This document shows, in pieces, positions 9,880 through 32,300 of a stretch of DNA of 64,000 nucleotides. Position numbers and translations under genes: made by a program. Numbering within the stretch: position 1 is the stretch's first letter; each line of letters starts with the position of its first letter. The notes under the pieces are model-generated. The model did not search any database, was not told where the DNA came from, and saw only the letters and a list, made by a program, of their open reading frames with translations. The DNA is from Sediminibacter sp. Hel_I_10 (GTDB lineage Bacteria; Bacteroidota; Bacteroidia; Flavobacteriales; Flavobacteriaceae). Location: assembly GCF_000688335.1 (NCBI RefSeq), contig NZ_JHZX01000001.1:3658001-3722000 (forward strand), in the 5' to 3' direction.

Positions 9880-10482
9880 ATGACCATAGTGCAAAGAGTG
9901 GAACTGGTAGAAGCCCTGTTTCTTCAATTAGAGCAAGAAAGCGCTCAGTTTCAACAAGCATCAGGTCTAGGCTGTGTCGCAGGCTGTGGCAAATGCTGTA
10001 CCTATCCAGATATTGAGGCCTCGCCTTTAGAGTTTTTGCCTTGGGCCTTTCATCTTTTTTTGAACGGTGAGGCAGAAAACACACTCGCGCTACTCAACAA
10101 AACCCATTCGGCCACCTGTTTTATTTATGCACCACTCACCAAATTGGATCATGGGCGCTGTAGCGATTACAAATACCGCGGACTCATTTGCAGGCTCTTT
10201 GGTTTTGCCGCCAATACCGATAAGTATGGCAACCTCAGGTTGGCCACCTGTAAGATCATTAAAGAAGGACAGGCAGAACGGTATGCCGATACCGCCGAGG
10301 CCATTTCCAAAGGGCTTTATGTGCCCATCTTTACAGAGTACTACATGCAATTGAACCAAATAGATTTCCATATGGGGAATATTATTCTACCCATCAACAA
10401 AGCATTGAAACATGCCATTGAAGAAGTCTTACAGTATTATGCCTACAGGCCATTGCCTGATGCAGCGATACGAGCGGTTTAG
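9880..10482 (+). CDS. YkgJ-family Cys-cluster (putative zinc/iron-chelating) protein
   Basis: A 200-residue cytoplasmic protein. The diagnostic feature is the cluster C32-x3-C36-x2-C39-C40 (GCVAGCGKCCTYP). Further cysteines are C80, C94, C104 (GLICRLFGF) and C124, the layout of YkgJ/UPF0153-type proteins presumed to bind Zn or an Fe-S cluster. Its biochemical role is unknown. The start ATG follows CTTTCCTAAAAAATAC. It is the intact member of three related loci in this window: a 5'-truncated copy lies at 5317-5519 and a 36-base tail at 16822-16857. Array A of the 320-bp repeat begins about 140 bases after its stop, and the same succession is found after the tail at 16857. Confidence 0.8.
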   Translation: MTIVQRVELVEALFLQLEQESAQFQQASGLGCVAGCGKCCTYPDIEASPLEFLPWAFHLFLNGEAENTLALLNKTHSATCFIYAPLTKLDHGRCSDYKYRGLICRLFGFAANTDKYGNLRLATCKIIKEGQAERYADTAEAISKGLYVPIFTEYYMQLNQIDFHMGNIILPINKALKHAIEEVLQYYAYRPLPDAAIRAV

Positions 10483-10543
10483 GGTTTTGAATTCTTGATT
10501 TGTTTTGAAGTGTACTAAAAACTACTGTAAGAAAAATCTATAG

Positions 10544-10620
10544 GTGACCCGAGGATAACCCGAGAATGACCCGAGAATGATCTGGGAATGATCTGGGGAT
10601 GATCTTTGAGTGATTTGTTG
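10544..10620 (+). repeat. 11-bp minisatellite
   Basis: Seven units of 11 bases in a row: GTGACCCGAGG, ATAACCCGAGA, ATGACCCGAGA, ATGATCTGGGA, ATGATCTGGGG, ATGATCTTTGA, GTGATTTGTTG. Consensus ATGAYCYGRGA. It lies between the YkgJ-type gene and the first unit of array A. A shorter version of the same tract is at 16919-16973. Confidence 0.85.
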
Positions 10621-12180
10621 TATCTGTTGTTCTTTTTTGTGCCCAAAAAAGAACCAAAAAAGGCTTTTGCGTCCGAAGGCATTTTTAATGGCGTTTTCTC
10701 GCCATTAAAACCAGAGCTCACTCCCTAAATCGCCTCCAAGGCTTCGGCGATTCTTTACGGAAGTGAGCTCTATATGCTGACGTCCGCGTTTTCCGACGTT
10801 GTCGGAATGCTGTTGCGATGGAGGGTGGTGTTTGGTGTTTGTTTTTGACTGTGTGGTTTGTCTTCGCTTAAATTGTGCGGGATTGCCGCGCTCGTCCCTC
10901 GCTCGCAATGATCTTTACTTGATATTCCTTTTCTTATTATGCTGTTCTTTTTTGTGCCCAAAAAAGAACCAAAAAAGGCTTTTGCTCTCGTAGGTATTTT
11001 CAATGGCTTTTCTGCGCCATTGAAACCAAGAACCATTTCCTAAATCGCTTCCAAGGTTTCAGCGATTCTTAACGGAAATGGTTCTTTATACTGACGAGCG
11101 CTTTTCCGACATTGTCGGAATGGTGTTGCGATGATGTTGTTGCTTGGTGTTGGTTTTGGTGTATCGGTTTTGTTTTGGATAGTAATTTTAAATATCTAAC
11201 TGCCGTTGGTCATTGCGAGTGAGGTACGAGCGTGGCAATCTCCTTCTTCATATTTTCTATTGTGTTGTTCTTTTTTGTGCCCAAAAAAGAACCAAAAAAG
11301 GCTTTTGCGTACGAAGGCATTTTTAATGGCGTTTTCTCGCCATTAAAACCAGAGCTCACTTCCTAAATTGCTTCCAAGGCTTCGGCGATTCTTTACGGAA
11401 GTGAGCTCTATATGCTGACGTCCGCATTTTCCGACTGCTTCGGAATGCTGTTGCGATGTTGGTTGTTGCTTGGTATTGGTTTTGGTGTGTCGGTTTTGTT
11501 TTACCTGGTAATGCTCTAAATATCAAACTGGCGTTGGTCATTGCGAGTGAGGTAAGAGCGTGGCAATCTGCTTCTTCATATGTTCTATTTTCTATTGTGT
11601 TGTTCTTTTTTGTGCCCAAAAAAGAACCAAAAAAGGCTTTTGCGTCCGAAGGCATTTTTAATGGCGTTTTCTCGCCATTAAAACCAGAGCTCACTCCCTA
11701 AATCGCCTCCAAGGCTTCAGCAATTTTTTACGGAAGTGAGCTCTATATGCTGACGTCCGCATTTTCCGACGTTGTCGGAATGGTGTTGCGATGGAGGTTG
11801 TTGTTTGGTGTTTGTTTTTGACTGTGTGGTATGTCTTCGCTTAAATTGTGTGGGATTGCCGTGCTCGTACCTTGCTCGTAATGACCTATAGATACTATTC
11901 CTTTTTCTTTTTCATGTTGTTGTTCTCTTTTGTGCCCAAAAAAGAACCAAAAAAGGCTTTTACGCTCAAAGGTATTTTCAATGGTTTTACTGCGCCATTG
12001 AAACCAAGAACCATTTCCTAAATAGCTTCCAGGGCTTCAGCGATTTTTAACGGAAATGGTTCTTTATACTGACGAGCGCTTTTCCGACGCTGTCGGAATG
12101 GTGTTGCGATGATGGTTCGTGTTTGTTATTGGTTGTGGTTTGTCTATTGTGTTTTTGAATTTGTGGTAGTATTTCAAATA
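10621..12180 (+). repeat. Structured repeat array A (five units of about 320 bp)
   Basis: Five units whose first inverted repeat starts at 10629, 10944, 11267, 11602 and 11932. In unit 1 the pairing arms are: H1 10629-10638/10645-10654; H2 10683-10693/10700-10710; H3 10713-10725/10759-10771; H4 10728-10734/10746-10752 nested in H3; H5 10791-10797/10801-10807. A GT-rich tail and a CATTGCGAG-type palindrome in either orientation (for example 10881-10913 minus, 11209-11240 plus) link one unit to the next. Units fall into two types. Alpha (units 1, 3, 4) has GAGCTCACT in H3 and ACGTCCGC before H5. Beta (units 2, 5) has GAACCATTT and ACGAGCGC. Reverse-strand frames of up to about 110 codons cross H1-H3 but are explained by the palindromes. 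No protein is claimed. Confidence 0.85.
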
Positions 12181-12215
12181 ACTAATTATCGCTACTCATA
12201 CTTCACGGTTGCCAT

Positions 12216-12258
12216 AAAAAAAACTTCGGAACCTCCATATGGGGTCCCGAAGCTTTTT
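12216..12258 (-). terminator. Terminator of the SprB-repeat gene
   Basis: On the minus strand GCTTCGGGACCCC pairs with GGTTCCGAAG around an ATATGGA loop and is followed by seven to eight T (A-run 12216-12223 on the plus strand). It lies about 40 bases after the stop codon of the adhesin gene and has a perfect position for it. Confidence 0.85.
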
Positions 12259-12295
12259 AAATACATACTCCTTTGAAGCGATATGTACTGATAAT

Positions 12296-15200
12296 TTAGT
12301 TTTTGATAAATCGGATGACATGGTTTCCAATGGTTATAAAATACATACCGCTCGATAGATCCTGAACATTGATGACTGCTTTGTTAGAGGTATTGCCCTT
12401 CAGCATTAATTTACCTAAAGTGTCATAAATACTATAGCTTTCAGTAGTTTGCAACCCAGACACCTGAATCTCAGCGGAAGCAGGATTTGGATATACCCTT
12501 ACTTTCAAAGCATTAGGCGTCACTGGGTTCAAGCCTAAAGTGGTCACTGTAATACATTCCGAAGTAACGGTACAGCTATTGCTATTTGTAAGCACCACTT
12601 TATAATCGCCTACTGCTGTAGGAGTAAAGCTCTGATTGGTTTCACCAATCAATTCTGTATTCGGACATGCAAACCATTGGTAAGTCACGTCAGTGGCGTT
12701 AGCTGTCAATACGCCGTCGGTTAGAACAACACTATTGTCTATAATAGCAGGCTCCGTAATGGTTACCGATGTTGTGGCGCTACAGCCATTGGCATCGCTG
12801 GTGGTTATGGGGTAGGTTCCCGCAGGCAATCCTGAAACTTCTAAAGTTGGATCAGGAAAATTACTGTAAGTGGTGCCGTTGATGGTATATTCAAACGGGG
12901 ACACCCCACCGGTAATACTAATGGTAACGTCACCCGTACCACCGTTACAGGCCGCATTGGCATCCACCACGGCACTGGCCACTAGGGCAACTGGCTCCGT
13001 AATGGTTACCGAGGTTGTGGCGCTACAGCCGTTGGCATCGCTGGTGGTGATGGGGTAGGTTCCCGCAGGCAATCCTGAAACTTCTAAAGTTGGATCAGGA
13101 AAACCGCTATAGGTAGTTCCATTGATGGTATATTCAAAAGGGGACACCCCACCGGTAATACTAATGGTGACCTCACCCGTGCCACCGTTACAGGCCGCAT
13201 TGGCATCCACCACGGCACTAGCCACTAAGGCAACCGGCTCCGTAATGGTTACCGAGGTTGTGGCACTACAGCCGTTGGCATCGCTGGTGGTGATGGGGTA
13301 AGTTCCCGCAGGCAATCCAGAAACTTCTAAAGTTGGATCAGGAAAACCGCTATAGGTAGTTCCATTGATGGTATATTCAAATGGGGACACCCCACCGGCA
13401 ATACTAATGGTCACATCACCTGTGCCACCGTTACAGGCCGCATTGGCATCCACTACGGCACTAGCTACTAGGGCAACCGGCTCTGTAATGGTTACACTAG
13501 CGGTATCGGTACAGCCGTTAGCATCCGTGATGGTCACATCATAAGTTCCAGCTGCAACGCCTACTATTGAAGCGGTTGTTGCAGCGTTACTCCATGAATA
13601 AGTGTATGGTGCTGTTCCACCTGTTGCACTTGCAGTAGCTGCGCCATCCGTTGCCCCATTACAGGTTGCATTGGCATCTACAACGGTATTAGCTGATAAT
13701 ATAGTTGGCTGGGTAACGGTAAACGATTGGCTAGCGGTACAGCCATTGGCATCGGTTACGGTACAGGTCCATGTGCCTGCCGAAAGACCTAAGACCGATG
13801 TAGTACCGTCGCCTGTTGGGTTTCCTGGCGTCCAGTTATAAGTATATCCACCAGCTCCTCCAGTAGCAACATTTACAGTTGCAGCACCTGTTGTTCCACC
13901 ATTACAAGCGATGTTGGTTTGTGATGCAGGGGTAAGGTTTAATGCCGCTGCAGGTTGGGTAACGGTAAACGATTGGCTAGCGGTACAGCCATTGGCATCG
14001 GTTACGGTACAAGTCCATGTGCCTGCCGAAAGACCTGTGACAGATGTTGTTCCATCACCTGTTGGGTTTCCTGGCGTCCAGTTATAGGTATAGCCACCAG
14101 CTCCTCCAGTAGCAACATTTACAGTTGCAGCACCTGTTGTTCCACCATTACAAGCGATGTTGGTTTGTGATGCAGGGGTAAGGTTTAATGCCTCTGCAGG
14201 TTGGGTTACTGTAAAACTTTGCGAAGCGGTACAGCCATTGGCATCGGTTACGGTACAGGTCCATGTGCCTGCCGAAAGGCCTGTGACAGATGTTGTTCCG
14301 TCGCCTATTGGGTTTCCTGGCGTCCAGTTATAAGTATATCCACCAGCTCCTCCAGTAGCAACATTTACATTTGCAGCACCTGTTGTTCCACCATTACAAG
14401 CGATGTTGGTTTGTGATGCAGGGGTAAGGTTTAATGCCTCTGCAGGTTGGGTTACTGTAAAACTTTGCGAAGCGGTACAGCCATTGGCATCGGTTACGGT
14501 ACAGGTCCATGTGCCTGCCGAAAGGCCTGTGACAGATGTTGTTCCGTCGCCTATTGGGTTGCCTGGTGTCCAGTTATAAGTATATCCACCAGCTCCTCCG
14601 GTAGCAACATTTACAGTTGCAGCACCCGTTGTTCCACCATTACAAGCGATGTTGGTTTGTGATGCAGGGGTAAGGTTTAATGCTTCTGCAGGTTGGGTTA
14701 CTGTAAAACTTTGCGAAGCGGTACAGCCATTGGCATCGGTTACGGTACAGGTCCATGTGCCTGCGCTAAGTCCTGAAACAGATGTTGTGCCATCTCCCGT
14801 TGGGTTTCCCGGTGTCCAGTTATAAGTATATCCACCAGCTCCTCCAGTAGCAACATTTACAGCTGCAGCTCCTGTTGTACCGCCATTACAAGCGATGTTG
14901 GTTTGTGATGCAGGGGTAAGGTTTAATGCCGCTGCAGGTTGGGTAACGGTAAACGATTGGCTAGCGGTACAGCCATTGGCATCGGTTACGGTACAGGTCC
15001 ATGTGCCTGCCGAAAGACCTGTGACAGATGTTGTGCCGTCGCCTATTGGGTTTCCTGGCGTCCAGTTATAGGTATATCCACCAGCTCCTCCAGTAGCAAC
15101 ATTTACAGTTGCAGCACCTGTTGTTCCGCCATTACAAGCGATGTTGGTTTGTGATGCAGGGGTGAGGCTTAACACTGTAGGCTGGGTAACGGTAAACGAT

Positions 15201-16477
15201 TGGCTAGCAGTACAGCCGTTGTCATCGGTTACAGTACAGGTCCATGTACCAGCGCTAAGTCCTGATACCGATGTGGTACCGTCACCTGTTGGGTTGCCCG
15301 GTGTCCAGTTGTAGGTATAGAATCCAGCTCCTCCTGTAGCAGCGTTTACGGTGGCCGCGCCTGTTGTTCCACCATTACAAGCGATGTTGGTTAGGGATGC
15401 CGGTGTAAGGCTTAATCCAGTTGCAGGTTGACTTATAGTTGCACTGGCGGTAGCAGTACATCCGTTAGTGTCGGTAACTGTTACTTCATATGTTCCGGCA
15501 CTAAGTCCTGAAGCAGTAGCCGAAGTTTGGGCAGAACCATCATCCCATAAATAGGTATAAGGAGATGCGCCATCTGCCGGTGTAACGGTTAAAGAACCGG
15601 TTGCTCCACCATTACAAGCAATATTGGTTTGTGATGTAATAGAGGCTGTCATGGTACATGAAGGCCCAGACGGCGTGATACTGGGTGTAGCATAGCTTGA
15701 AGGGGAAATGTCGTAGCTAGCATCATCTTCAAACTCCCATTGGGTTCTGTCGTTGATCAGTGCTCTAATAGCATCCGCAGTCCCATTTAAGGAACCTGTA
15801 TATCTACCATTATCATTTTCAGAAACAGACTCTAAAATTGGGGCAGGATATAAATGTACAGCATCAACGCCATTGGTCAATCCTGGCGGAATACCTGAAG
15901 CATTTGAGTTATTGGATAGTTCACCATCTGGGGTAAAGTCAGAAGCACAAGGAGTGCCGTTATACCAACCTTGACTACCATCACAATCCGTGTTATGGCC
16001 AAAGTTGTCATCCGTATAAATGCCTGCTAAAAACGTGGCGTTGGTGGCCGCAGGTTGTGCACCCGTAGTACTTTGATAAGCAAGAATAACGTCGCCAGAC
16101 TGTATTAAAGAAAAATCTCCCCCAGTCTCTTTGGACATGGTACCTGTGGTTGCCGACAAGATATTGGTTGCTGAACCCGTTTCGGTAACTGTCACGATGG
16201 TGCCAATGGATACCGGAGAGGTAGCAGTCCAAGCGTAGTGGGCATCCGCTGTGTTGTTATGCCAAGTGTTAAAGGAATAGGACCAACTATGGTCTGTAAA
16301 ATAAATGACTTCCCCACTTGGAATATCTTTTAAAGTAATAAAAGTAAAACCATCATTATCGTCCAGATGAAAGCCGATAAAAGCAATATCACCTGCCGAT
16401 AGGGTTTGTGCGTACACGCTGCGATCACTGCCTAATGCGCACAGCATCAAGACAACAGCTAGTAAAAATTTTTTCAT
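12296..16477 (-). CDS. Giant SprB-repeat surface adhesin with T9SS type A sorting domain
   Basis: A 1393-residue secreted protein. A signal peptide (to about residue 24) is followed by an N-terminal domain of about 240 residues (GDIAFIGFHLDDND at its start). Twelve SprB-type repeats follow, recognised by ACNGGTTG near the start and GTYxVTVTDxNGC near the end of each: one divergent unit, seven almost identical 82-residue units, one intermediate, and three almost identical 80-residue units. After them come an Ig-like segment and a type A sorting domain (VYPNPASAEIQVSG, IYDTLGKLML, LSSGMYFITI, final RFIKN). Proteins of this build are exported by the T9SS and act as cell-surface adhesins, some in gliding. 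The near identity of the repeats suggests recent expansion. The gene lies between repeat arrays A and B. Confidence 0.9.
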   Translation of the reverse strand: MKKFLLAVVLMLCALGSDRSVYAQTLSAGDIAFIGFHLDDNDGFTFITLKDIPSGEVIYFTDHSWSYSFNTWHNNTADAHYAWTATSPVSIGTIVTVTETGSATNILSATTGTMSKETGGDFSLIQSGDVILAYQSTTGAQPAATNATFLAGIYTDDNFGHNTDCDGSQGWYNGTPCASDFTPDGELSNNSNASGIPPGLTNGVDAVHLYPAPILESVSENDNGRYTGSLNGTADAIRALINDRTQWEFEDDASYDISPSSYATPSITPSGPSCTMTASITSQTNIACNGGATGSLTVTPADGASPYTYLWDDGSAQTSATASGLSAGTYEVTVTDTNGCTATASATISQPATGLSLTPASLTNIACNGGTTGAATVNAATGGAGFYTYNWTPGNPTGDGTTSVSGLSAGTWTCTVTDDNGCTASQSFTVTQPTVLSLTPASQTNIACNGGTTGAATVNVATGGAGGYTYNWTPGNPIGDGTTSVTGLSAGTWTCTVTDANGCTASQSFTVTQPAAALNLTPASQTNIACNGGTTGAAAVNVATGGAGGYTYNWTPGNPTGDGTTSVSGLSAGTWTCTVTDANGCTASQSFTVTQPAEALNLTPASQTNIACNGGTTGAATVNVATGGAGGYTYNWTPGNPIGDGTTSVTGLSAGTWTCTVTDANGCTASQSFTVTQPAEALNLTPASQTNIACNGGTTGAANVNVATGGAGGYTYNWTPGNPIGDGTTSVTGLSAGTWTCTVTDANGCTASQSFTVTQPAEALNLTPASQTNIACNGGTTGAATVNVATGGAGGYTYNWTPGNPTGDGTTSVTGLSAGTWTCTVTDANGCTASQSFTVTQPAAALNLTPASQTNIACNGGTTGAATVNVATGGAGGYTYNWTPGNPTGDGTTSVLGLSAGTWTCTVTDANGCTASQSFTVTQPTILSANTVVDANATCNGATDGAATASATGGTAPYTYSWSNAATTASIVGVAAGTYDVTITDANGCTDTASVTITEPVALVASAVVDANAACNGGTGDVTISIAGGVSPFEYTINGTTYSGFPDPTLEVSGLPAGTYPITTSDANGCSATTSVTITEPVALVASAVVDANAACNGGTGEVTISITGGVSPFEYTINGTTYSGFPDPTLEVSGLPAGTYPITTSDANGCSATTSVTITEPVALVASAVVDANAACNGGTGDVTISITGGVSPFEYTINGTTYSNFPDPTLEVSGLPAGTYPITTSDANGCSATTSVTITEPAIIDNSVVLTDGVLTANATDVTYQWFACPNTELIGETNQSFTPTAVGDYKVVLTNSNSCTVTSECITVTTLGLNPVTPNALKVRVYPNPASAEIQVSGLQTTESYSIYDTLGKLMLKGNTSNKAVINVQDLSSGMYFITIGNHVIRFIKN
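12749..13468 (-). repeat. Three 240-bp coding tandem repeats
   Basis: Starts of the matching segment CTCCGTAATGGTTACCG recur at about 12750, 12990 and 13230, exactly 240 bases apart. Each codes for one 80-residue SprB-type unit of the adhesin. Differences between copies are a handful of bases, many synonymous. Confidence 0.85.
13708..15420 (-). repeat. Seven 246-bp coding tandem repeats
   Basis: Seven units with a 246-base period (for example GCGGTACAGCCATTGGCATC recurring at 13979, 14225, 14471, 14717, 14963) encode the 82-residue SprB units. Several neighbouring copies differ at only a few positions. Because 246 is divisible by three, unit gain or loss would keep the frame. Confidence 0.85.
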
Positions 16478-16821
16478 AATGTTTAGGTTTGGGTTCTAAT
16501 AATGGGGTGCAAAGTATTTAAAAAAATGATTATAAAAAAATATAAATCGTAAATAAACCTATTTATTTGCACTTAATCGATTAGATGTAAGTTATATCTT
16601 TCATTAAGAGGCGCGGCTCTGCAAACTATAGCCTCAGCTTTTTCAATAATGCTCCAACAGATAAGGGTATAGCATGGCTCTACCGCCCTTAATGAGTCAT
16701 TTAAAGAAAAATGCACTTTAGCAGATATTTAGTCTTGCACATCTTAAGGCTAAGGGCACACTCCATGCGTAAGATGGTATAACCCCTTGCAGTATGAGAG
16801 ATGTCATGGGATTGCATCATT
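16478..16821. other. Intergenic region upstream of the adhesin
   Basis: Contains the adhesin 5' flank, including TACTTTGC (minus strand, about 16509-16516), which resembles a Bacteroidetes -7 element but lacks a good -33 partner. No gene recognised. Confidence 0.4.
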
Positions 16822-16857
16822 AGACCATTGCCTAAAGCAGCGATCCGAGCGGTTTAG
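16822..16857 (+). pseudogene. Tail fragment of the YkgJ-type gene
   Basis: AGACCATTGCCTAAAGCAGC through the stop codon TAG matches the last 12 codons of the gene at 9880-10482. The match continues without break into the 3' flank (TTTGTTTTGAAGTGTACTAA, CTACTGTAAGAAAAA) and the 11-bp minisatellite. It is therefore part of a duplicated segment, not a gene. Confidence 0.8.
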
Positions 16858-16918
16858 GGGTTCGAATTTTTGATTTGTTTTGAAGTGTACTAAAAACTAC
16901 TGTAAGAAAAACCGATAG

Positions 16919-16973
16919 GTGGACTGAGGATGACCTGAGGATGATCTGGGAATGAGCTTTGGGTGATTTGTTA
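16919..16973 (+). repeat. 11-bp minisatellite, second copy
   Basis: Five 11-base units (TGGACTGAGG, ATGACCTGAGG, ATGATCTGGGA, ATGAGCTTTGG, GTGATTTGTTA; the first is degenerate). It is orthologous in position and sequence to 10544-10620 and shorter by two units. Confidence 0.75.
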
Positions 16974-18870
16974 GATGTGTTGTTCTTTTTTGAGCCCAAA
17001 AAAGAACGAAAAAGGCTTTTACGCTCGAAGGTATTTTCAATGGCTTTTCTGAGCCATTGAAACCAGAGCTCACTTCCTAAATTGCTTCCAAGGCTTCGGC
17101 GATTCTTTACGGGAGTGATCTCTATATGCTGATGTCCGCGTTTTCCGACGTTGTCGGAATGGTGTTGCGATGGTGGTTGTTGTTTGGTGTTTATTTTGGT
17201 GTGTCGGTTGTGTTTTTGATTAATGAGGCTTGATAGGTTCAACTGCCGTTGGTCATTGCGGGTGAGGTAGGAGCGTGGCAATATGCTTTTTCATATGTCT
17301 TGTTGCGTTGTTCTTTTTTGAGCCCAAAAAAGAACCAAAAAAGGCTTTTACGCTCGAAGGTATTTTCAATGGCTTTACTGCGCCATTGAAACCAAGCCCC
17401 ATTTCCTAAATCGCTTCCAAGGCTTCAGCGATTTTTAACGGAAATGGGTCTTTATACTGACGAGCGCTTTTCCGACTTTGTCGGAATGGTGTTGCGATGG
17501 AGGTGTTTCTTTGGTGTTGGTTTTGGTGTGTCGGTTTTGTTTTGGATAGTAATGCTTGAAATATCAAACTGCCGTTGGTCATTGCGAGTGAGGTACTAGC
17601 ATGGCAACCTGCTTCTTCAAATGTTTTATTTTTTGTTTTTTATTGTGTTGTTCTTTTTTGAGCCCAAAAAAGAACCAAAAAAGGCTTTTGCGTCCGAAGG
17701 CATTTTTAATGGCGTTTTCGCACCATTAAAACCAGAGCTCACTTCCTAAATTGCTTCCAAGGCTTCAGCAATTTTTTACGGAAGTGAGCTCTATATACTG
17801 ACGTCCGCGTTTTCCGAGTGCGTCGGAATGATGTTGCGATGGAGGTTGTTGTTTGGTGTTTGTTTTTGACTGTGTGTTATGTCTTCGCTTAAATTTTGTG
17901 GAATTGCCGTGCTCGTACCTTGCTCGCAATGACCTATAGATACTATTCCTTTTTCTTTTTTTATTGTACTGTTCTTTTTTGAGCCCAAAAAAGAACCAAA
18001 AAAGGCTTTTGCGTCCGAAGGCATTTTTAATGGCGTTTTCGCGCCATTAAAACCAGAGCTCACTTCCTAAATTGCTTCCAAGGCTTCAGCAATTTTTTAC
18101 GGAAGTGATCTCTATATGCTGACGTCCGCATTTTCCGACTGCGTCGGAATGATGTTGCGATGGCGGTTGTTGTTTGGTGTTTGTTTTTGACTGTGTGGTG
18201 TGTCTTCGCTTAAATTGTGTGGAATTGCCGTGCTCGTACCTTGCTCGCAATGACCTATAGATACTATTCCTTTTTCTTTTTTTATTGTACTGTTCTTTTT
18301 TGAGCCCAAAAAAGAACCAAAAAAGGCTTTTGCGACCGAAGGCATTTTTAATGGCGTTTTTGCGCCATTAAAACCAAAGCTCACTCCCTAAATCGCCTCC
18401 AAGGCTTCGGCGATTCTTTACGGAAGTGATCTCTATATGCTGACGTCCGCGTTTTCCGACTGCGTCGGAATGATGTTGCGATGGAGGTTGTTGTTTGGTG
18501 TTTGTTTTTGACTGTGTGGTATGTCTTCGCTTAAATTTTGTGGGATTGCTGCGCTCGTTTCTCGCTCTTAATGATCTGTACTTGATATTCCTTTTCTTTC
18601 TTTTGATTGTGTTGTTCTTTTTTGTGCCCAAAAAAGAACCAAAAAAGGCTTTTACGCTCGAAGGCATTTTTAATGGCGTTTTTGCGCCATTAAAACCAGA
18701 GCACACTCCCTAAATCGCTTCCAAGGCTTCAGCGATTCTTAACGGAAATGGCTCTTTATACTGACGAGCGCTTTTCCGACTGCGTCGGAATGGTGTTGCG
18801 ATGATGGTTTGTGTTTGGTATTGGTTGTGGTTTGTCTGTTGTGTTTTTGATTAATGAGGCTTGATTGCTT
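16974..18870 (+). repeat. Structured repeat array B (six units of about 320 bp)
   Basis: Six units with the first inverted repeat at 16982, 17310, 17650, 17971, 18292 and 18614. Orientation and helix order are as in array A. Units 1, 3, 4 and 5 are alpha type and unit 2 is beta. Unit 6 is a chimera: its H3 left arm is alpha-like (GAGCACACTCCC) while the right arm and tail are beta (GGAAATGGCTC, ACGAGCGC), so H3 pairs poorly. H4 shows both AATCGC/GCGATT and AATTGC/GCAATT pairs among copies. Units 3, 4 and 5 are almost identical, which indicates recent duplication. The terminal tail (GGTATTGGTTGTGGTTTGTC) is shared with the ends of arrays A and C. Confidence 0.85.
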
Positions 18871-19217
18871 ATTTTGGGTTATAGTTTACATAAAACCAGT
18901 GGTTTGCATTTTTATGAGATTTGTATTTGGGATTCGGGTTGGTACGCTAATTGTTTAAAAAAGGATCTGATTTTTATGTCTTTTATGAGAAATTATACAT
19001 AATTGAATGGTTTTTATGTAAATACTTAAAAATAAATAATTTACGAATTAAAAAATATTTTATATGTTTGACTTACAGCTGTTTGTAAAATTCGATTTTA
19101 TGAACCTTTAATTGGTCCATTTTGCCCTCGATCTCGTGCGTCTATACGGCGCAGAAGTAAACCAGATTGTGTTCGCCATTGGATGCCATGGGCGGCACAA
19201 TCATAAACTTCTTTATT
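18871..19217. other. AT-rich junction between array B and the defence region
   Basis: AT-rich sequence (notably 18950-19080) with no gene. The part just before 19218 is open in the frame of the following gene but its composition and lack of a start context make it unlikely to be coding. Confidence 0.4.
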
Positions 19218-20018
19218 ATGGCAAAGAATAATTCCTTTATCAGAATTGAAGGGACTCTTGATGGGTTGACCTTCTACAGAAAAAACGGTGAGTCTTTAAT
19301 AAAGACCAAAAACCGTTTGAGCCGTAACAGGATTATGAATGATCCTGCGTACAAGCGTACTCGTGAAAACATGCGCGAATTTGGTGGTTCTGCCGTTTGT
19401 GGCAAATCTTTTAGAGAATCTTTTGCCGGTATTGTGCGCTTGGTTGCCGATACCTTTATCAGTAGCCGGGTTACTGGCTTGATGCGTACTGTAGTTGCGA
19501 GTGGGGCAGGACTGCGTGGTGAACGTGCCATAAGTCTTGTGGACCATTTGGACACGTTTGTTGGCTTTAACTTTAATATTAAAAAGCCATTTGACAGTCA
19601 TTTTAATGCGCCTGCGCCTGCACCTGTTCTTAATGCCAACCGTGATACGTTGACCTGGAACGTGCCCGACTTTAATAGCGATACTTATGTATTAAGGCCA
19701 GAGGGCGCTACCCATTTTAAACTGGCATTAGCTGCTGGGTTTGTAAGCAATTACGAGTGGGATCCTGCTACCAAAACCTATGTTCCTGTTGAGGCCAGCC
19801 CTAATGGGATTGGAGGGGTTATTTATAGTGCCCCAATTGCGCTTGGCGGGATGGTTGGTGCTGCTACAGATTTGGAGGTAGATCTTTCTGCCCAAGGTCC
19901 AGTACCGGCAACCACGGCTGTTTTTGGTGGTACTGCCATTGTGTTTTACCAAATGGTGAACGGTGAGCTCTATGAGCTTGCGCAAGGGCATTGTATGAAA
20001 ATTGCCGTTGGTGGTTGA
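19218..20018 (+). CDS. Hypothetical protein (MAKNNSF... type)
   Basis: A 266-residue soluble protein. I chose the ATG at 19218 (MAKNNSFIRIEGTLDGLTFY) because upstream codons in the frame look non-coding. The first 60 residues, with the series TFYRKNGESLIKTK, SRNRIMNDPAYKRTRENMRE, form a basic, conserved-looking segment. The middle and end are beta-rich and contain no cysteine cluster or catalytic motif that I can see. I have the impression of a Bacteroidetes family of unknown function whose members begin this way, but cannot name it. It stands between array B and the type I restriction operon and is closed by a terminator at 20072, so it is transcribed separately. Confidence 0.7.
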   Translation: MAKNNSFIRIEGTLDGLTFYRKNGESLIKTKNRLSRNRIMNDPAYKRTRENMREFGGSAVCGKSFRESFAGIVRLVADTFISSRVTGLMRTVVASGAGLRGERAISLVDHLDTFVGFNFNIKKPFDSHFNAPAPAPVLNANRDTLTWNVPDFNSDTYVLRPEGATHFKLALAAGFVSNYEWDPATKTYVPVEASPNGIGGVIYSAPIALGGMVGAATDLEVDLSAQGPVPATTAVFGGTAIVFYQMVNGELYELAQGHCMKIAVGG

Positions 20019-20303: not shown

Positions 20304-22652
20304 ATGAACAAATCATCACACAATAAATTAGTATCCTTCATTTGGTCTATAGCAGACGACTGTCTTCGAGACGTTTACGTACGAGGAAAATACCGTGATG
20401 TTATTTTGCCAATGATCGTATTACGTCGTTTAGACGCGTTGTTAGAACCAACAAAAGACGCAGTTTTAGAAGAACTGGCCTTTCAACGTGACGAAGCCAA
20501 GTTCACAGAATGGGATGAATCTGGACTTCGTGATGCTTCGGGTTATGTGTTTTATAATGTAAGCACGTGGACACTTCAAAAATTAAAAGATACCGCAACC
20601 AACAGCCAACAAATTTTACAGGCTAATTTTGAAGATTATCTAAACGGTTTCAGTCCTAATGTGAAGGAAATTATTGAGAAATTTAAATTACGTAGTCAGG
20701 TACGTCACATGGCAACCAAAGATGTGTTGTTAGATGTGTTGGAAAAATTTACATCGTCATACATTAATTTAACACCTTTTGAGAAAGAAGATCCAGAAGG
20801 TAGAAAATTACCAGCGCTTTCTAATTTAGGAATGGGTTATGTGTTTGAAGAACTCATTAGAAAATTCAACGAAGAAAATAACGAAGAAGCTGGAGAGCAC
20901 TTCACACCGCGTGAAGTGATTGATTTAATGACCCACATTATCTTCGATCCCATAAAAGACAATTTACCACCAGTAATGACTATTTATGATCCTGCTTGTG
21001 GTTCTGGAGGGATGCTTACCGAAAGCCAGAACTTTATAAAAGACGAAGAAGGTGCTATTAAAGCGATGGGTGATGTCTATTTATACGGAAAAGAAATAAA
21101 CGACGAAACCTACGCCATTTGTAAAAGTGATATGATGATTAAAGGTAATAACCCTGAAAACATAAGAGTTGGTTCTACATTGTCTACAGACGAGTTTGCA
21201 GGCAAGTCGTTCGATTTTATGCTATCCAATCCACCGTACGGAAAATCATGGTCTAGTGAGCAAAAATATATCAAGGATGGCAAAGATGTGATTGATCCTC
21301 GTTTTCAAATCAGTCTAAAAAATTATTGGAATGTCGAAGAAGAAGCAGATGCCATTCCAAGATCTTCAGACGGGCAATTACTGTTTTTAATGGAAATGGT
21401 AGATAAAATGAAAGCCTTATCCCAAAGTCCCACAGGAACACGCATTGCTTCGGTACATAACGGAAGTAGCCTATTTACAGGAGATGCAGGAGGTGGCGAA
21501 AGCAACATCCGCAGACACATTATAGAAAACGATTGGCTAGAAGCGATTGTGCAATTACCAAACAACCTGTTTTATAATACTGGGATTACCACGTATATCT
21601 GGATTTTAAGTAACCATAAAGCGGCTAACCGTAAAGGCAAAGTACAATTGATTGATGCAGGACAATTGTATAGAAAACTGCGTAAAAACTTAGGAAACAA
21701 AAATTGCGAGTTCTCAACAAAGCACATTAGCATAATTGTAAATACCTATACCAACATGAGCGTTGCAGAACGTGAAGGCGAGCAAGGTATTTCTGCTCAG
21801 GTTTTTGACAATGAAGATTTTGGATATTTCAAAACCACTATAGAAAGACCAAAACGCTTAAAAGCACAATTTACGGCACAACGAATAGAAACCTTACGTT
21901 ACGACAGAGTATTGCAAGAACCGATGCAATATGCGTTTGAAACGTTTGGGGGAAGTATATACAGCAAAACCAAAGAACACGGAAAAGAATTGCTAGAATG
22001 GTGCGAAAAAAACGAGTTAAATTTATCATCTGCTAATAAAACAAAACTGACCAAGCCAGCAACATGGCAAAAGCATTTTAACTTAGTAAAAACAGGCACG
22101 TTGTTGTTAAAAGCCATTGGTGAAGACGAATATACCGATTTTAACGAGTTTAAAAAACTAGTTGATACTGAAATTAAAAAGCAAAAACTAAATATTTCTG
22201 CAAGCGATAAAAAAGCCATTTTAAACGCCGTAAGTTGGTACGATGCTGAGGCTGAAAAAGTCATTAAAAAAGTAGAAAAACTATCTGGTGATAAATTAAA
22301 CAAACTCTTAACGCATTTAGATTGCGAAGAAAAAGATTTAGCAGACTTTGGGTATTATGCGACTTCTAAAAAAGGAGAGTACACAACCTACGAAACCGAA
22401 AGTGATCTACGCGACACCGAAAACGTACCATTGAAAGACAACATACACAGCTACTTTAAACGCGAAGTACAAACACACGTACCAGAAGCGTGGATAAACC
22501 TAGACGCTACTAAAATTGGGTATGAGATTAGTTTTAACAAATACTTTTACAAGCATACACCATTGCGTAACATAGAAGACGTAATTAAAGATATTAGAGA
22601 CTTAGAAAAACTAAGCGATGGTTTAATTTCTGAAATTTTAAACTTGGTGTAA
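20304..22652 (+). CDS. hsdM: Type I restriction-modification methyltransferase subunit
   Basis: A 782-residue N6-adenine DNA methyltransferase. Residues 1-150 are the helical HsdM N-terminal domain (LPMIVLRRLDALLEP). The S-adenosylmethionine motif is DPACGSGGM at about 229-237, and the catalytic motif IV is NPPYG at about 309-313. GEHFTPREVIDLM precedes motif I as usual. The protein is longer than the roughly 500-550 residues of classical HsdM, with a Lys-rich helical C-terminal extension (about 560-782). It would form the M2S modification complex with the adjacent specificity subunit and add HsdR for cleavage. The stop overlaps the hsdS start (TAATG). Confidence 0.93.
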   Translation: MNKSSHNKLVSFIWSIADDCLRDVYVRGKYRDVILPMIVLRRLDALLEPTKDAVLEELAFQRDEAKFTEWDESGLRDASGYVFYNVSTWTLQKLKDTATNSQQILQANFEDYLNGFSPNVKEIIEKFKLRSQVRHMATKDVLLDVLEKFTSSYINLTPFEKEDPEGRKLPALSNLGMGYVFEELIRKFNEENNEEAGEHFTPREVIDLMTHIIFDPIKDNLPPVMTIYDPACGSGGMLTESQNFIKDEEGAIKAMGDVYLYGKEINDETYAICKSDMMIKGNNPENIRVGSTLSTDEFAGKSFDFMLSNPPYGKSWSSEQKYIKDGKDVIDPRFQISLKNYWNVEEEADAIPRSSDGQLLFLMEMVDKMKALSQSPTGTRIASVHNGSSLFTGDAGGGESNIRRHIIENDWLEAIVQLPNNLFYNTGITTYIWILSNHKAANRKGKVQLIDAGQLYRKLRKNLGNKNCEFSTKHISIIVNTYTNMSVAEREGEQGISAQVFDNEDFGYFKTTIERPKRLKAQFTAQRIETLRYDRVLQEPMQYAFETFGGSIYSKTKEHGKELLEWCEKNELNLSSANKTKLTKPATWQKHFNLVKTGTLLLKAIGEDEYTDFNEFKKLVDTEIKKQKLNISASDKKAILNAVSWYDAEAEKVIKKVEKLSGDKLNKLLTHLDCEEKDLADFGYYATSKKGEYTTYETESDLRDTENVPLKDNIHSYFKREVQTHVPEAWINLDATKIGYEISFNKYFYKHTPLRNIEDVIKDIRDLEKLSDGLISEILNLV

Positions 22653-23998
22653 TGGTAGAAGTAGAAAATAAAGTACAACGTTACGAGAAGTATAAAGATT
22701 CTGGAGTAGAATGGTTGGGTGAAATTCCTTTGAATTGGGGTTTACAAAAACTTAAATCTTTTTTAACTGTTCATGGAAGAATTGGTTTTAGAGGATACAC
22801 AGTTAATGATTTAGTTAGTAAAGGTGAAGGAGCAGTAACAATAAGTCCTTCCAATATGGGAGAATCTAATATGATTTGGGATAAAGTTAGTTATTTGTCT
22901 TGGCAGAAATATTACGAATCACCCGAAATAATTGTTGAAGAAGGAGATTTGTTGATTGTGAAAACTGCATCAATTGGAAAAATTGCTTATGTAAGAGAGT
23001 TAAATGAGAAAGCAACAATAAACCCTCAAATTCTGATTTTGAAAAACGTCAAGATTGATAAAGACTTTTTTTACTATCAATTGGTCTCTAGAGTTTTTCA
23101 GCATCAATTAGAAACCGAAAAAATAGGAAGTACGATTTACACAATATCTGAAAATAAAATTTTGAATTTTAGAGCTATAATTCCACCACTTCCAGAACAA
23201 ACAAAAATAGCCCAATTTTTAGACGATAGAACCACCAAAATAGACAAGGCTATTGCCATCAAAGAGCATCAAATAAGCTTGCTTAAAGAACGTAAACAAA
23301 TTCTCATACACAAAGCAGTCACGCGTGGTTTAGATGAAAGTGTTAACTTTAAAGACTCTGGCGTGGAGTGGATTGGTGAGATTCCTGAGCATTGGAAGGT
23401 GAAGCGAATAAAGCATTTATTAAATAAGTCATTTAGTGGAGGAACACCCTCTACAGATAAATTAGATTATTGGGACGGAGGTATTTCCTGGGTTTCATCT
23501 GTTGATGTTAAGAAAGATTATCTTTTTAAAACTGCTAGAGAAATATCTCAAAAAGGACTAACACATTCTTCTTCAAAAGTAGCACCAAAAGGAGCTCTTA
23601 TTTTTGTTACAAGGTCAGGAATTCTTCAGCATACATTTCCTCTTTCAATACTAAAAAAAGATATGGCAATTAATCAAGATATTAAATGTTTAATTTTCAA
23701 TGATGTAATTTTATCAGAATATTTTCAAAAAATTATTAAAGGAAATAATGACAGGATATTAGTAGAAGTTAGGCAACAAGCAGCAACAGTCGAAAGTATT
23801 GATATGGAAGCTTTTTTTAACTTACAGATTCCTGTCTGTAGTCAAAATGAACAAAAAGAAATTTCAGGATATATAGAAAATAGTTGTAAAAAAATAGAAA
23901 CTGCTATTGGCTTAAAACAGCAGGAAATAGAAAAGTTGAAAGAGTTTAAGAGTAGTTTAATAAATGGGGTGGTGACTGGTAAGGTTAGGGTGTGTTAA
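22652..23998 (+). CDS. hsdS: Type I restriction-modification specificity subunit
   Basis: A 448-residue DNA-recognition subunit with two target-recognition domains. Each half opens with the same motif, DSGVEWLGEIPLNW (about 13-26) and DSGVEWIGEIPEHW (about 231-244), and closes with a conserved helical segment (IPPLPEQTKIAQFLDDRT near 182 and NEQKEISGYIENSC near 405). The two halves therefore read the two parts of a bipartite target. The target cannot be read from sequence. The start ATG overlaps the stop of hsdM by one base, showing translational coupling. The next gene begins 43 bases later, and the usual partner hsdR is displaced by three inserted genes. Confidence 0.93.
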   Translation: MVEVENKVQRYEKYKDSGVEWLGEIPLNWGLQKLKSFLTVHGRIGFRGYTVNDLVSKGEGAVTISPSNMGESNMIWDKVSYLSWQKYYESPEIIVEEGDLLIVKTASIGKIAYVRELNEKATINPQILILKNVKIDKDFFYYQLVSRVFQHQLETEKIGSTIYTISENKILNFRAIIPPLPEQTKIAQFLDDRTTKIDKAIAIKEHQISLLKERKQILIHKAVTRGLDESVNFKDSGVEWIGEIPEHWKVKRIKHLLNKSFSGGTPSTDKLDYWDGGISWVSSVDVKKDYLFKTAREISQKGLTHSSSKVAPKGALIFVTRSGILQHTFPLSILKKDMAINQDIKCLIFNDVILSEYFQKIIKGNNDRILVEVRQQAATVESIDMEAFFNLQIPVCSQNEQKEISGYIENSCKKIETAIGLKQQEIEKLKEFKSSLINGVVTGKVRVC

Positions 23999-24016
23999 AA
24001 GAACACGTTAATATTG

Positions 24017-24024
24017 TAGATTTG
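24017..24024 (+). promoter_or_regulatory. Possible -7 promoter element before the DUF262 gene
   Basis: TAGATTTG fits the Bacteroidetes -7 consensus TAnnTTTG and lies 18 bases before the ATG. No good TTTG is present 19-21 bases upstream, so the call is weak. If real, the three inserted genes plus hsdR could be expressed separately from hsdMS. Confidence 0.3.
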
Positions 24025-24041
24025 TAAAAAGGATATTAGAT

Positions 24042-25196
24042 ATGTCAGATAATATGATACACACAGACCCAGAACTAGATGAAGAGGTTGTAGAGGTAGA
24101 AGAAATTGATGCATCTTTGGGATTGATGGAGAAACCCTTTGATCCAACTAAGATTAACATCGAGACTAAAACACCATCTCTTGACACGCTCATTAAACGT
24201 ATACAGCACAAGAGCATTGAGATGAATACTGAAAATTACTTTCAGCGTCAAGACGATTTGTGGGATATTGAAAAACAAAGTAGGTTGATTGAATCGATAC
24301 TGATTAGGTTTCCGCTGCCAGCATTTTTCTTTGATGCATCGGACGACAACAAATGGTTGGTGGTTGACGGGTTACAGCGATTGAGCAGTATCCGTAATTT
24401 CTGCGTGGTTAAGGATCCAAAGAAGCAATTGAAATTAACTAACCTTGAGTTCCTGACCCATTTAAACGGAAAAACCTATGACGATTTGAGCCATGATCTG
24501 CAGCGTATCATTGAGGAATCGCAGGTGGTAATTTATAAAATTATGCCTGGGACGCCTACCGATGTGAAGTTCAATATCTTTAAGCGTATCAATACTGGTG
24601 GATTGGTGCTGGAGCCTCAAGAAATTAGACATGCCCTTTTTCAGGGACGACCAGCCACGTTTATCGCTGAATTAGGTAAGAATCAAGAGTTTCTTAACGC
24701 CACCAATTGGAAAATTAAAACCCACCGTATGCTGGATAGGGATTTTGCCAATCGGTTTTTAGGTTTTTACCTGTATGACTATAAAAGTTATACGCCAGAT
24801 TTAGATACGTTTATGAGTAAGGCGATGGCGAGTATAAATGATTTAACTGAAAATGAACTTCAAACTATAAAAAATGATTTTAGTAAGTCAATGAAACTTG
24901 CACATACCATTTTTAAGAACGAAGCATTTAGAAAAATTTATACCGATAAACCACGTTTGCCACCTATCAATAAAGCTTTGTTTGATGCGATAGCAACTCA
25001 GTTTGCTTTGTTATCGGATGAAGAACGCGCATTGTTAAAAGCAAAAGGAAGAGTATTCAAAAAAGAATTAAAGCAGAAACTGGCTCATGACCCTGAATTT
25101 TTTACTTCGTTATCAAGTTCAACAGGAGATAGGAATAGAGTTATAAAGCGGCATAGCACAATTGAAGAATTGATACAACACGTAATTCATAATTAA
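24042..25196 (+). CDS. DUF262 (ParB/Srx-like nuclease fold) protein inside the RM operon
   Basis: A 384-residue protein with a DUF262 domain. The visible marks are YFQRQDDLWDIEKQSRLIES (66-85), FPLPAFFFD, the DGLQR box at 109-113 (DGQQR in many relatives) and FNIFKRINTGG at about 177-187. DUF262 occurs in GmrS of the GmrSD modification-dependent restriction system, usually with a DUF1524 HNH domain. No such HNH domain is visible in the C-terminal half here, which is helical. The N-terminal 40 residues are acidic and probably disordered. One base separates its stop from the ATG of the ATPase gene, so the two are translationally linked. A defence role is inferred from family and context. Confidence 0.8.
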   Translation: MSDNMIHTDPELDEEVVEVEEIDASLGLMEKPFDPTKINIETKTPSLDTLIKRIQHKSIEMNTENYFQRQDDLWDIEKQSRLIESILIRFPLPAFFFDASDDNKWLVVDGLQRLSSIRNFCVVKDPKKQLKLTNLEFLTHLNGKTYDDLSHDLQRIIEESQVVIYKIMPGTPTDVKFNIFKRINTGGLVLEPQEIRHALFQGRPATFIAELGKNQEFLNATNWKIKTHRMLDRDFANRFLGFYLYDYKSYTPDLDTFMSKAMASINDLTENELQTIKNDFSKSMKLAHTIFKNEAFRKIYTDKPRLPPINKALFDAIATQFALLSDEERALLKAKGRVFKKELKQKLAHDPEFFTSLSSSTGDRNRVIKRHSTIEELIQHVIHN

Positions 25197-25197
25197 A

Positions 25198-26348: not shown

Positions 26349-26351
26349 TTC

Positions 26352-31429: not shown

Positions 31430-32300
31430 ATCTTAATTTGTATGTTCTTTTTTGTGCCCAAAAAAGAACCAAAAAAGGCTTTTACGCTCGAAGGTATTTT
31501 CAATGGCTTTTCTGCGCCATTGAAACCAAAAACCATTTCCTAAATCGCTTCCAAGGCTTCAGCGATTTTTAACGGAAATGATTTTTTATACTGACGAGCG
31601 CTTTTCCGACGTTGTCGGAATGCTGTTGCGACGATGGTTCTTGTTTGATGTAGGTTGTGGTTTGTCTGCTGTGTTTTTGCTTAGTGATGTTTTATGGGCT
31701 AAACTGTTAGTCATTGCGAGTGAGGGGTAAGTGGGGGGCAATCTTAATTTGTATGTTCTTTTTTATGCCAAAAAAAGAACCAAAAAAGGCTTTTGCTCTC
31801 GAAGGTATTTTCAATGGCTTTACTGCGCCATTGAAACCAAGCCCCATTTCCTAAATCGCTTCCAAGGCTTCAGCGATTTTTGAAGGAAATGATTTTTTAT
31901 ACTGACGAGCGCTTTTCCGACGTTGTCGGAATGCTGTTGCGATGATGGTTCGTGTTTGGTATTGGTTGTGGTTTGTCTGCTGTGTTTTTGCTTAGTGATG
32001 CTTTAAGGGCTAAACTGTTAGTCATTGCGAGTGAGGGGTGAGTGGGGCAATCTTAATTTGTATGTTCTTTTTTGAGCCCAAAAAAGAACCAAAAAAGGCT
32101 TTTACGCTCGAAGGTATTTTCAATGGCTTTACTGCGCCATTGAAACCAAGACCCATTTCCTAAATCGCTTCCAAGGTTTCAGCGATTCTTAACGGAAATG
32201 GTTCTTTATACTGACGAGCGCTTTTCCGACGTTGTCGGAATTGTGTTGCGATGATGGTTCGTGTTTGGTATTGGTTGTGGTTTGTCTGTTGTGTTTTGCT
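31430..32300 (+). repeat. Structured repeat array C (three beta-type units)
   Basis: Three units with the first inverted repeat at 31444, 31755 and 32064, periods 311 and 309 bases, same orientation as arrays A and B. All are beta type (CATTTCC/GGAAATG in H3, ACGAGCGC before H5). The linking palindrome (GTCATTGCGAGTGAGGGGT) is a distinct variant with GGGG, different from arrays A and B. The last unit ends in the tail shared by all three arrays and is followed within 20 bases by the end of the blh gene. Confidence 0.85.

Follow-up and report, generated by a model that had tools for sequence, protein, structure and literature searches.

The window considered here is a stretch of 64,000 nucleotides from the genome of Sediminibacter sp. 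Hel_I_10 (contig NZ_JHZX01000001.1, positions 3,658,001 to 3,722,000), and it contains 14 copies of a repeated element predicted to fold as a structured RNA. The units share one internal order and one orientation and form three arrays of five, six and three. Those of array 1 (10.6-12.2 kb) start at 10629, 10944, 11267, 11602 and 11922, those of array 2 (17.0-18.9 kb) at 16982, 17310, 17650, 17971, 18292 and 18614, and those of array 3 (31.4-32.4 kb) at 31444, 31755 and 32064. An earlier note on this DNA had placed 14 units in three arrays between 10,621 and 18,870; all of them exist, 11 inside that interval and the three of array 3 outside it. The 14-nt core of the inverted repeat that the note called H1 is matched 28 times in both strands at up to two mismatches, against 1.11 expected in shuffled sequence. 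When the whole 4.1-Mb genome was searched, the element was confined to one 21-kb stretch with 14 model matches. The units, of types alpha and beta, are listed below with their scores under the covariance model R1; the last two lines give the domains of unit u09 as an example.

10631..10788, minus strand: u01 (alpha), predicted three-way junction plus putative triple-helix pseudoknot; R1 116.6 bits
10946..11102, minus strand: u02 (beta), RNA element; R1 136.5 bits, member of the R1 seed
11269..11426, minus strand: u03 (alpha), RNA element; R1 115.8 bits
11604..11761, minus strand: u04 (alpha), RNA element; R1 117.4 bits
11924..12080, minus strand: u05 (beta), RNA element; R1 124.3 bits
16984..17140, minus strand: u06, alpha/beta recombinant; R1 89.8 bits and alignment
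17312..17468, minus strand: u07 (beta), RNA element; R1 131.2 bits
17652..17809, minus strand: u08 (alpha), RNA element; R1 119.4 bits
17973..18130, minus strand: u09 (alpha), RNA element; R1 116.5 bits
18294..18451, minus strand: u10 (alpha), RNA element; R1 111.4 bits
18616..18772, minus strand: u11, alpha/beta recombinant with damaged P3; R1 116.1 bits and alignment
31446..31602, minus strand: u12 (beta), in the third array; R1 135.0 bits
31755..31913, minus strand: u13 (beta), RNA element; R1 116.2 bits
32066..32222, minus strand: u14 (beta), RNA element; R1 129.4 bits
17967..18009, minus strand: 3′ tail of u09; a GCC, third strand UUUUUU, GGUUC, b UUUUUU, a′ GGC, b′ AAAAAA
18010..18130, minus strand: 5′ domain of u09; P1, CAGYAUA, P3, P4 with the GAAGCCUUGGA loop, P2, P1′

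The predicted RNA is about 155 nt long and consists of two domains, a three-way junction of helices P1 to P4 and a 3′ pseudoknot tail. P1 closes the junction, from which P2 and the long P3-P4 hairpin branch. The joining segment J31 reads CAGUAUA, J12 is 1-2 nt long, and P2 abuts P3. P2 has the form GGUUUU...AAAAnACC, and the P3-P4 hairpin carries a conserved internal loop and the terminal loop GAAGCCUUGGA. In some copies (L116 and L081, Kordia; L173) the P1 arm is interrupted by a segment ending in ATGAATCTTCGA or ATGAATCTTTGA. The earlier note had described five helices, and the arms it quoted for H2, H3 and H4 are present in the units. Its layout lacked the closing helix P1, and its H1 appears to be one half of the putative triple-helix pseudoknot. 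The fifth helix, CCGAC/GTCGG, occurs in most units, deviates in those starting at 11267 and 17650, and lies outside the conserved element, recurring in some relatives only.

In the 14 units alone, both-sided changes affect 10 of 53 pairs (7.0 in shuffles, 26 of 500 of which reach 10). There are 29 cells changed on both sides (13.2 in shuffles; 0 of 500 reach this number), and further pair types show no excess (20 against 19.9 shuffled). Covariation inside the window is modest and mostly reflects the alpha/beta contrast, so that the case rests on relatives.

Such relatives were sought with the pattern TCCAAGGCTTC NNNN ATTNTTNACG, written on the strand of the earlier note and allowing one mismatch, which matched 10 genomes among 395 sampled from the order (reversed control, 0). 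A longer exact pattern was present in at least 120 stretches of named genomes, among them Kordia, Leeuwenhoekiella, Arenibacter, Winogradskyella, Maribacter, Mesonia, Salinimicrobium, Dokdonia and metagenome-assembled genomes of Saprospiraceae and Lentimicrobiaceae. The repeat is not private to the genome of the window. One locus of the window's genus and one of Winogradskyella ouciana (L043/L085) share their flanks, over 1804 nt at 80%, a likeness that tentatively suggests Winogradskyella as the genus. The element is nevertheless patchy rather than universal: family A occurs in 8 of 23 genomes of the genus, the model R2 found 8 of 296 Bacteroidota genomes, the own genome included, under stricter filters that recovered 10 of its 14 copies, and a strict tail pattern found 2 of the 296. 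Many loci hold a single copy.

The covariance model R1 was built from 13 sequences and searched against 100 loci at E ≤0.01, giving 139 matches (136 distinct) that include all 14 window units; a second model search covered 71 further loci, 9 of them in common with the first 100. In the R1 alignment 94.6% of 6,071 cells are paired (at most 62.5% in slid-arm controls), and 44 of the 47 modelled pairs show both-sided changes. The covariation score is 0.670, compared with 0.148 and 0.155 for one-column slides, and is reached by 0 of 500 shuffles. This alignment is fitted to the model and therefore biased towards it. A parse made from the sequence alone agrees: positions 0-3 of P3 are Watson-Crick in 159 of 160 pairs, with up to four pair types. 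For this parse 174 instances were gathered, of which 169 had enough flank and 12 of those remained unparsed; 143 reached a score of 10.5 (40 non-redundant), and the strand test took those at 7 or more (155). Between lineages, the helix arms are wholly different and the loops unchanged. The fold of the element is well supported by this comparison; its transcription and function are inferred. The earlier note had read the paired arm changes as constraint on a folded strand and had proposed alignment with relatives and a covariance-model search as the check. The covariation, thin within the 14 units, becomes overwhelming once the relatives are added.

The direction of folding can be read from the wobble pairs. 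When P3 is parsed on the plus strand, the 130 distinct helices contain 1432 Watson-Crick pairs, 98 A.C and 7 G.T (p 1e-21), while P4 (13 A.C against 6 G.T, p 0.17) and P1 (35 against 35) are undecided. A plus-strand A.C is a minus-strand G.U, which points to the minus strand as the folded one; the parser scored G.T as paired, so its bias opposes this result. The model-aligned rows contain, on the minus strand, 446 G.U against 85 A.C, significantly so in all five helices, a count biased in the opposite sense and sharing 20 rows with the other alignment. Of 155 elements, 84.5% are also more stable when folded as the minus strand, and for 245 nt around u09 the folding z is -4.43 on the minus and -3.96 on the plus strand. 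The rows are related, so the p-values overstate their independence. The functional strand is most likely the minus strand, judging by these sequence comparisons, and not the one on which the helices were first described.

On the minus strand, the former H1 becomes a series of parts: a, UUUCUUUU, a linker, UUUUCUUUG, a′, AAG and CAAAGAAAA. Segment a finds its pairing partner a′ inside the hairpin loop, as GUC/GAC, GCC/GGC, UGUA/UACA, CGCA/UGCG, UUGAU/AUCAA and others. In a permutation test with 76 distinct elements, the complementary run of a and a′ averages 4.16, compared with 2.86 (sd 0.09) when permuted. This test took over from a fixed-register parse, which counted 30-34 Watson-Crick pairs of 48 at each position, showed no mirror match in 23 elements and was abandoned as too rigid for all-A arms. 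Read in this way, the tail is a predicted H-type pseudoknot in which a is followed by the pyrimidine third strand, then by b, a′ and the purine strand b′. The pyrimidine segment occupies the part of loop 1 that spans the major groove of the stem b/b′.

This third strand follows the purine strand in parallel, for instance AAAGAAAA with UUUCUUUU, or AAAAGAAA with UUUUCUUU in L038; in L220, AAGAGAAAG is matched by UUCUCUUUC and a/a′ is UUGAC/GUCAA. Among 43 distinct tails, whose register was set by the a/a′ pairing and the purine content and never by the mirror match, the parallel (mirror) register is better in 23 and the direct one in 1, with 19 ties. The matching cells number 253 for mirror versus 213 for direct out of 299, and C stands opposite G 22 versus 4 times. 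Arms reading AAAGAAA have a third-strand C in 17 of 17 distinct rows, compared with 0 of 20 for arms of at least five A without an inner G. For 7-nt arms, parallel and antiparallel matches tie (5.98 versus 6.00 of 7) because AAAGAAA is palindromic, and the separation comes from the longer arms only. Such a parallel match is the signature of a major-groove triple helix of U.A-U and C+.G-C triples, which the tail is accordingly predicted to form.

The tail is also found apart from the GAAGCCUUGGA head. A scan for complete tails gave 134 matches (119 distinct), against 3 on the reversed sequence; the GAAGCCUUGGA head precedes 110 of them and is missing from 24, proportions that are not representative, as the scanned loci were mostly selected for family A. 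Most of these 24 could be grouped by eye. One group keeps P1 and P2 and carries another P3-P4 arm like AGCUCCGANNGACAGGAGCG...GCGGAGCU (L111, L157, L227, L144, L222, L223), a second resembles GUAAAAUUUGAAG...AAAAUUUAG (L177, L077, L111, L230, L232), and a third reads GUAGUAAAACC...CUAGCGCAGCG (L035, L101). The remaining heads include singletons, and at least L139, L145 and the plus-strand match of L240 were placed in no group. A tail pattern of the all-U type occurs in 15 of the 23 genomes of the window's genus (reversed control, 0). DNA searches of a plasmid collection returned 14 records for one tail query (E 3e-5 to 6e-1) and 12 for another (E 6e-6 to 2e-4), including Pseudoalteromonas, Burkholderia, Pasteurella and Haliovirga (Fusobacteriota). 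Only the Spiroplasma row is overlapped by a listed gene, in gene tables that are incomplete for this collection. Among six loci read, a/a′ pairing together with the parallel match is present in Pasteurella (two tails), Pseudoalteromonas (two loci) and Haliovirga; an Azospirillum match proved not to be a tail once its locus was read. Pseudoalteromonas locus L264 carries two more tails on the minus strand (926-965 and 1641-1680), with a/a′ CGACG/CGTCG. By these sequence matches, the predicted tail is a module that stands behind several different 5′ domains in three phyla, Bacteroidota, Pseudomonadota and, on one record, Fusobacteriota.

The borders of the element recur. In 1,020 pairs of similar copies, one side of the alignment most often stops at +50 to +60 (548 pairs), where P1 ends. 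The opposite side stops at -120 to -110 (248), the tail, at -60 (172), the P1 border, or at -30 (134); similarity among many copies stops near the tail. Such recurrent ends make the element a recurrent unit, with a junction that occurs without the tail too. An example of its insertion is the paaD-paaG gap, where about 195 nt in one genome, consisting of the element (161 nt) and about 30 nt more, are missing from four aligned sisters. A target-site duplication, which together with terminal inverted repeats marks a MITE, was not clearly seen at this, the single insertion compared. In several species of the genus, the same gap upstream of paaG holds a different repeat that is also structured, GCGTTACCC..TAACGC, whose paired hairpin varies (L233, L237, L242, L245, L247, L249). 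By this comparison of sequences, the copies are discrete units, scattered through genomes and in places arranged in tandem.

Neighbouring copies tend to point the same way. In 23 of 28 stretches with at least two model matches, all copies lie on one strand (the strands were entered by hand and some stretches overlap), and tails less than 700 nt apart form 23 same-strand, 4 convergent and 3 divergent pairs. In the paa operon, with genes identified by eye, every copy or match lies in sense, 3 of 3 in the genome G004 and 4 of 4 in L144; of these seven, two are weak or have the other P3-P4 arm. In gaps between codirectional genes, 42 copies are in sense and 20 in antisense (p 0.007, open reading frames of at least 110 aa), and the median distance from the upstream gene to the start of a sense copy is 49-66 nt.

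Within the window, an SprB-repeat gene and a carotene-dioxygenase (BCD)-domain gene have arrays 1 and 3, respectively, on their 3′ sides, with the units in sense. The former gene, on the minus strand at 12296-16477 between arrays 1 and 2, encodes a secreted protein of 1393 aa in which SprB repeats are matched 12 times and a type IX sorting tail is present. A type I restriction-modification island (hsdM, hsdS, GmrSD-like, AAA/DUF3696, hsdR) occupies 20304-30251 on the plus strand between arrays 2 and 3. The plus-strand gene at 19167-20018 has a MAKNNSFIRIEGTLDGLTFY segment and no Pfam match, and its relatives lie near elements in 7 of 139 loci, itself counted. Spacers between units (11209-11241, 11538-11571, 11853-11886 and others) contain a repeat like GTCATTGCGAG...GGCAATCT in both orientations. 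A 149-nt segment that includes the end of the gene at 9880-10482 precedes arrays 1 and 2, at 10447-10595 and 16822-16970, with the two copies 84% alike. The arrays evidently grew by unequal recombination, and their tandem copies are probably not all functional.

No common partner gene was found among the 15 largest clusters of nearby proteins, the largest being present in 9 of 139 loci; integrases, transposases and reverse transcriptases were not profile-searched. The KNNSFIRLEGTLDGL-type gene was rejected as a partner, being near elements in 7 of 139 loci only, a frequency judged not to exceed the usual abundance of such a gene. A phage origin was likewise rejected: in viral_contigs, three element or tail patterns had 0 matches and one pattern hit 1 contig.

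The favoured interpretation sees in the repeat a dispersed RNA element that resists exonucleases through its 3′ triple helix and that has spread as a non-autonomous repeat. It is held tentatively, at a little short of an even chance. The element would act once transcribed, probably inside longer transcripts, as no promoter signal was found. The A-rich 3′ strand, buried in the triple helix, would stop 3′-to-5′ exonucleases, by which the upstream RNA, or the element itself, would be stabilised. The exchangeable 5′ head may add blocking or protein binding. Copies would spread as non-autonomous repeats, and arrays would enlarge by unequal recombination.

Several observations weigh against this interpretation. 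In the window, P1 is paired in just 69% of cells, with the alpha units mispaired, and two units are alpha/beta recombinants, so that the full constraint does not act on every copy. Four copies (in L056, at 6778 in L076, at 222 in L101 and at 1489 in L111) keep the junction and seemingly lack the tail. The tail arms are perfect in just 125 of 174 instances, and strict a/a′ pairing was not found in 19 of 62 parsed rows. Arms with a displaced G are mixed: of three AAAAGAA rows, two have the C, and among the exceptions are the window units at 11924 and 31755. The Burkholderia tail has no good a/a′ and is antisense to both of its neighbours. The sense bias is weak overall and shrinks with stricter gene calls, to 36:26 (p 0.25) and 33:21 (p 0.13). 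A promoter motif was not enriched in rough counts over 165 elements, TA..TTTG occurring 14 times upstream and 12, 10 and 8 times in controls. The strand asymmetry is also compatible with a folded single strand of DNA. In Pasteurella (L263, 1129-1540), the DUF484-dapF gap holds two tailed copies head to head with their 3′ ends outward, one in sense and one in antisense, whose heads are 69% alike as inverted repeats over 262 nt. A DNA palindrome fits this pair too, which slightly lowers the favoured interpretation and slightly raises that of a single-stranded DNA element.

A broader proposal regards the elements as a mobile RNA superfamily that crosses phyla, with a MALAT1-type tail and interchangeable heads, a bacterial counterpart of short interspersed nuclear elements (SINEs) that would stabilise the transcripts carrying it. 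On the present sequences it seems possible, though doubtful. One of the two main rival views is that of a SINE-like retro-mobile RNA, in which a reverse transcriptase acting in trans recognises the shared tail and the heads vary freely. Eukaryotic pairs of short and long retroelements offer the analogy of a shared 3′ tail, and the single 3′ tail behind several 5′ heads, the recurrent ends, the insertion seen in one species and not in its sisters, and the patchy presence of family A in the genus would all fit. The partner gene that it calls for was not seen around the elements, where no profile search was aimed at reverse transcriptases, and a clear target-site duplication is missing at the one insertion. 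Retro-mobility is judged unlikely.

In the other main rival, the folding strand would be DNA. In this explanation, the strand folds during replication and is mobilised by a transposase acting in trans, of the HUH type or another, in the manner of REP or IS200/IS605 ends, and the triplex would be a DNA fold-back triplex. The strand asymmetry, the one-strand arrangement of most multi-copy stretches, the recurrent borders and the head-to-head pair of Pasteurella agree with it. Against it stand the invariant unpaired motifs over about 155 nt and the sense placement in the paa operon, which exceed the needs of transposase ends. Inverted pairs are also not the rule among neighbouring tails, and tandem duplication would give same-strand clustering as well. 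Both the DNA element and its fold-back triplex are considered rather improbable.

Gene-cassette attachment sites read by their fold, like attC, would explain why arrays 1 and 2 flank the SprB-repeat gene and arrays 2 and 3 the restriction island, as arrays bracketing variable genes, and why copies in one stretch are mostly on one strand. In the loci listed, however, the genes between elements do not share an orientation, no gene family recurs widely around the elements (integrases were not profile-searched) and many loci are single-copy. This explanation is considered very unlikely. Paired changes can also arise without selection, by template-switch correction of quasi-palindromes. Compensatory changes are then expected in long perfect arms, and the inner end of P3 is nearly perfect; this process leaves unexplained the invariant loops, the strand-specific wobble, the pairing of a with a′ across another helix and the parallel mirror matches, and it has hardly any probability. 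A reverse-strand protein as the selected product, suggested by open reading frames of 88-149 aa over the units, can be dismissed almost entirely, as the earlier note had supposed: each frame of both strands is interrupted in at least one of the 14 cores, 7 of 11 unit lengths cannot be divided by three, and 0 of 5 such frames tested reached a Pfam gathering score.

If the triple helix of the favoured RNA element forms in cells, bacteria would guard RNA ends in the manner of MALAT1, with a portable tail carried by dispersed repeats in several phyla. This would offer a so far overlooked way to influence the stability of bacterial RNA, a natural test of how triple helices evolve, through Hoogsteen covariation, and possibly a class of RNA-borne mobile elements.

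The earlier note knew of no described element of this kind, and Rfam 15 agrees, with 0 matches in the window at gathering score. A permissive scan of 17600-18900 had as its best match Phe_leader on the plus strand, at 31 bits where 55 are needed, and five related loci gave 0 Rfam matches at E 1. No account of the element was found in the open-access literature searched. A table row of Weinberg et al. 2010 (PMC2864571) lists a GUCCY-hairpin motif from Bacteroidetes and Proteobacteria, with RNA status '?' and no Rfam entry. Possibly a portion of the tail had already been sighted in this motif.

Like REP, BIME and REPIN sequences, the element is dispersed, structured, intergenic and sometimes clustered in bacterial genomes. 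REPs are described as palindromes of 20-40 bp (PMC3733652), whereas the element is about 155 nt long with a junction and a predicted pseudoknot. The SAM-II and preQ1-II riboswitches and telomerase RNA contain an H-type pseudoknot with a major-groove triple helix, and SAM-V is described in the same terms. The pseudoknot type appears to be shared with these RNAs, but here it is the 3′ tail of a repeat and not a ligand-binding leader, and no template like that of telomerase RNA came to light, although no search was aimed at one. In the order of its parts the tail resembles the MALAT1 end, where two pyrimidine tracts are followed by an A-rich strand; herpesvirus PAN guards its RNA end by the same trick. 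MALAT1, MENbeta and the viral expression and nuclear retention element (ENE) have in common two pyrimidine tracts before an A-rich 3′ strand, and a parallel Hoogsteen strand with C+.G-C inside. MALAT1 is protected by its 3′-terminal triple helix (PMC11411715). The ENE-type order of tracts, with tract 1 parallel to the purine strand, is found in the bacterial tail as far as sequence tells. The bacterial tail differs in its length of about 45 nt, its short a/a′ stem in place of a long stem-loop, and its lack of poly(A). By analogy, this suggests a likeness of function with the MALAT1 end, for which no homology is claimed.

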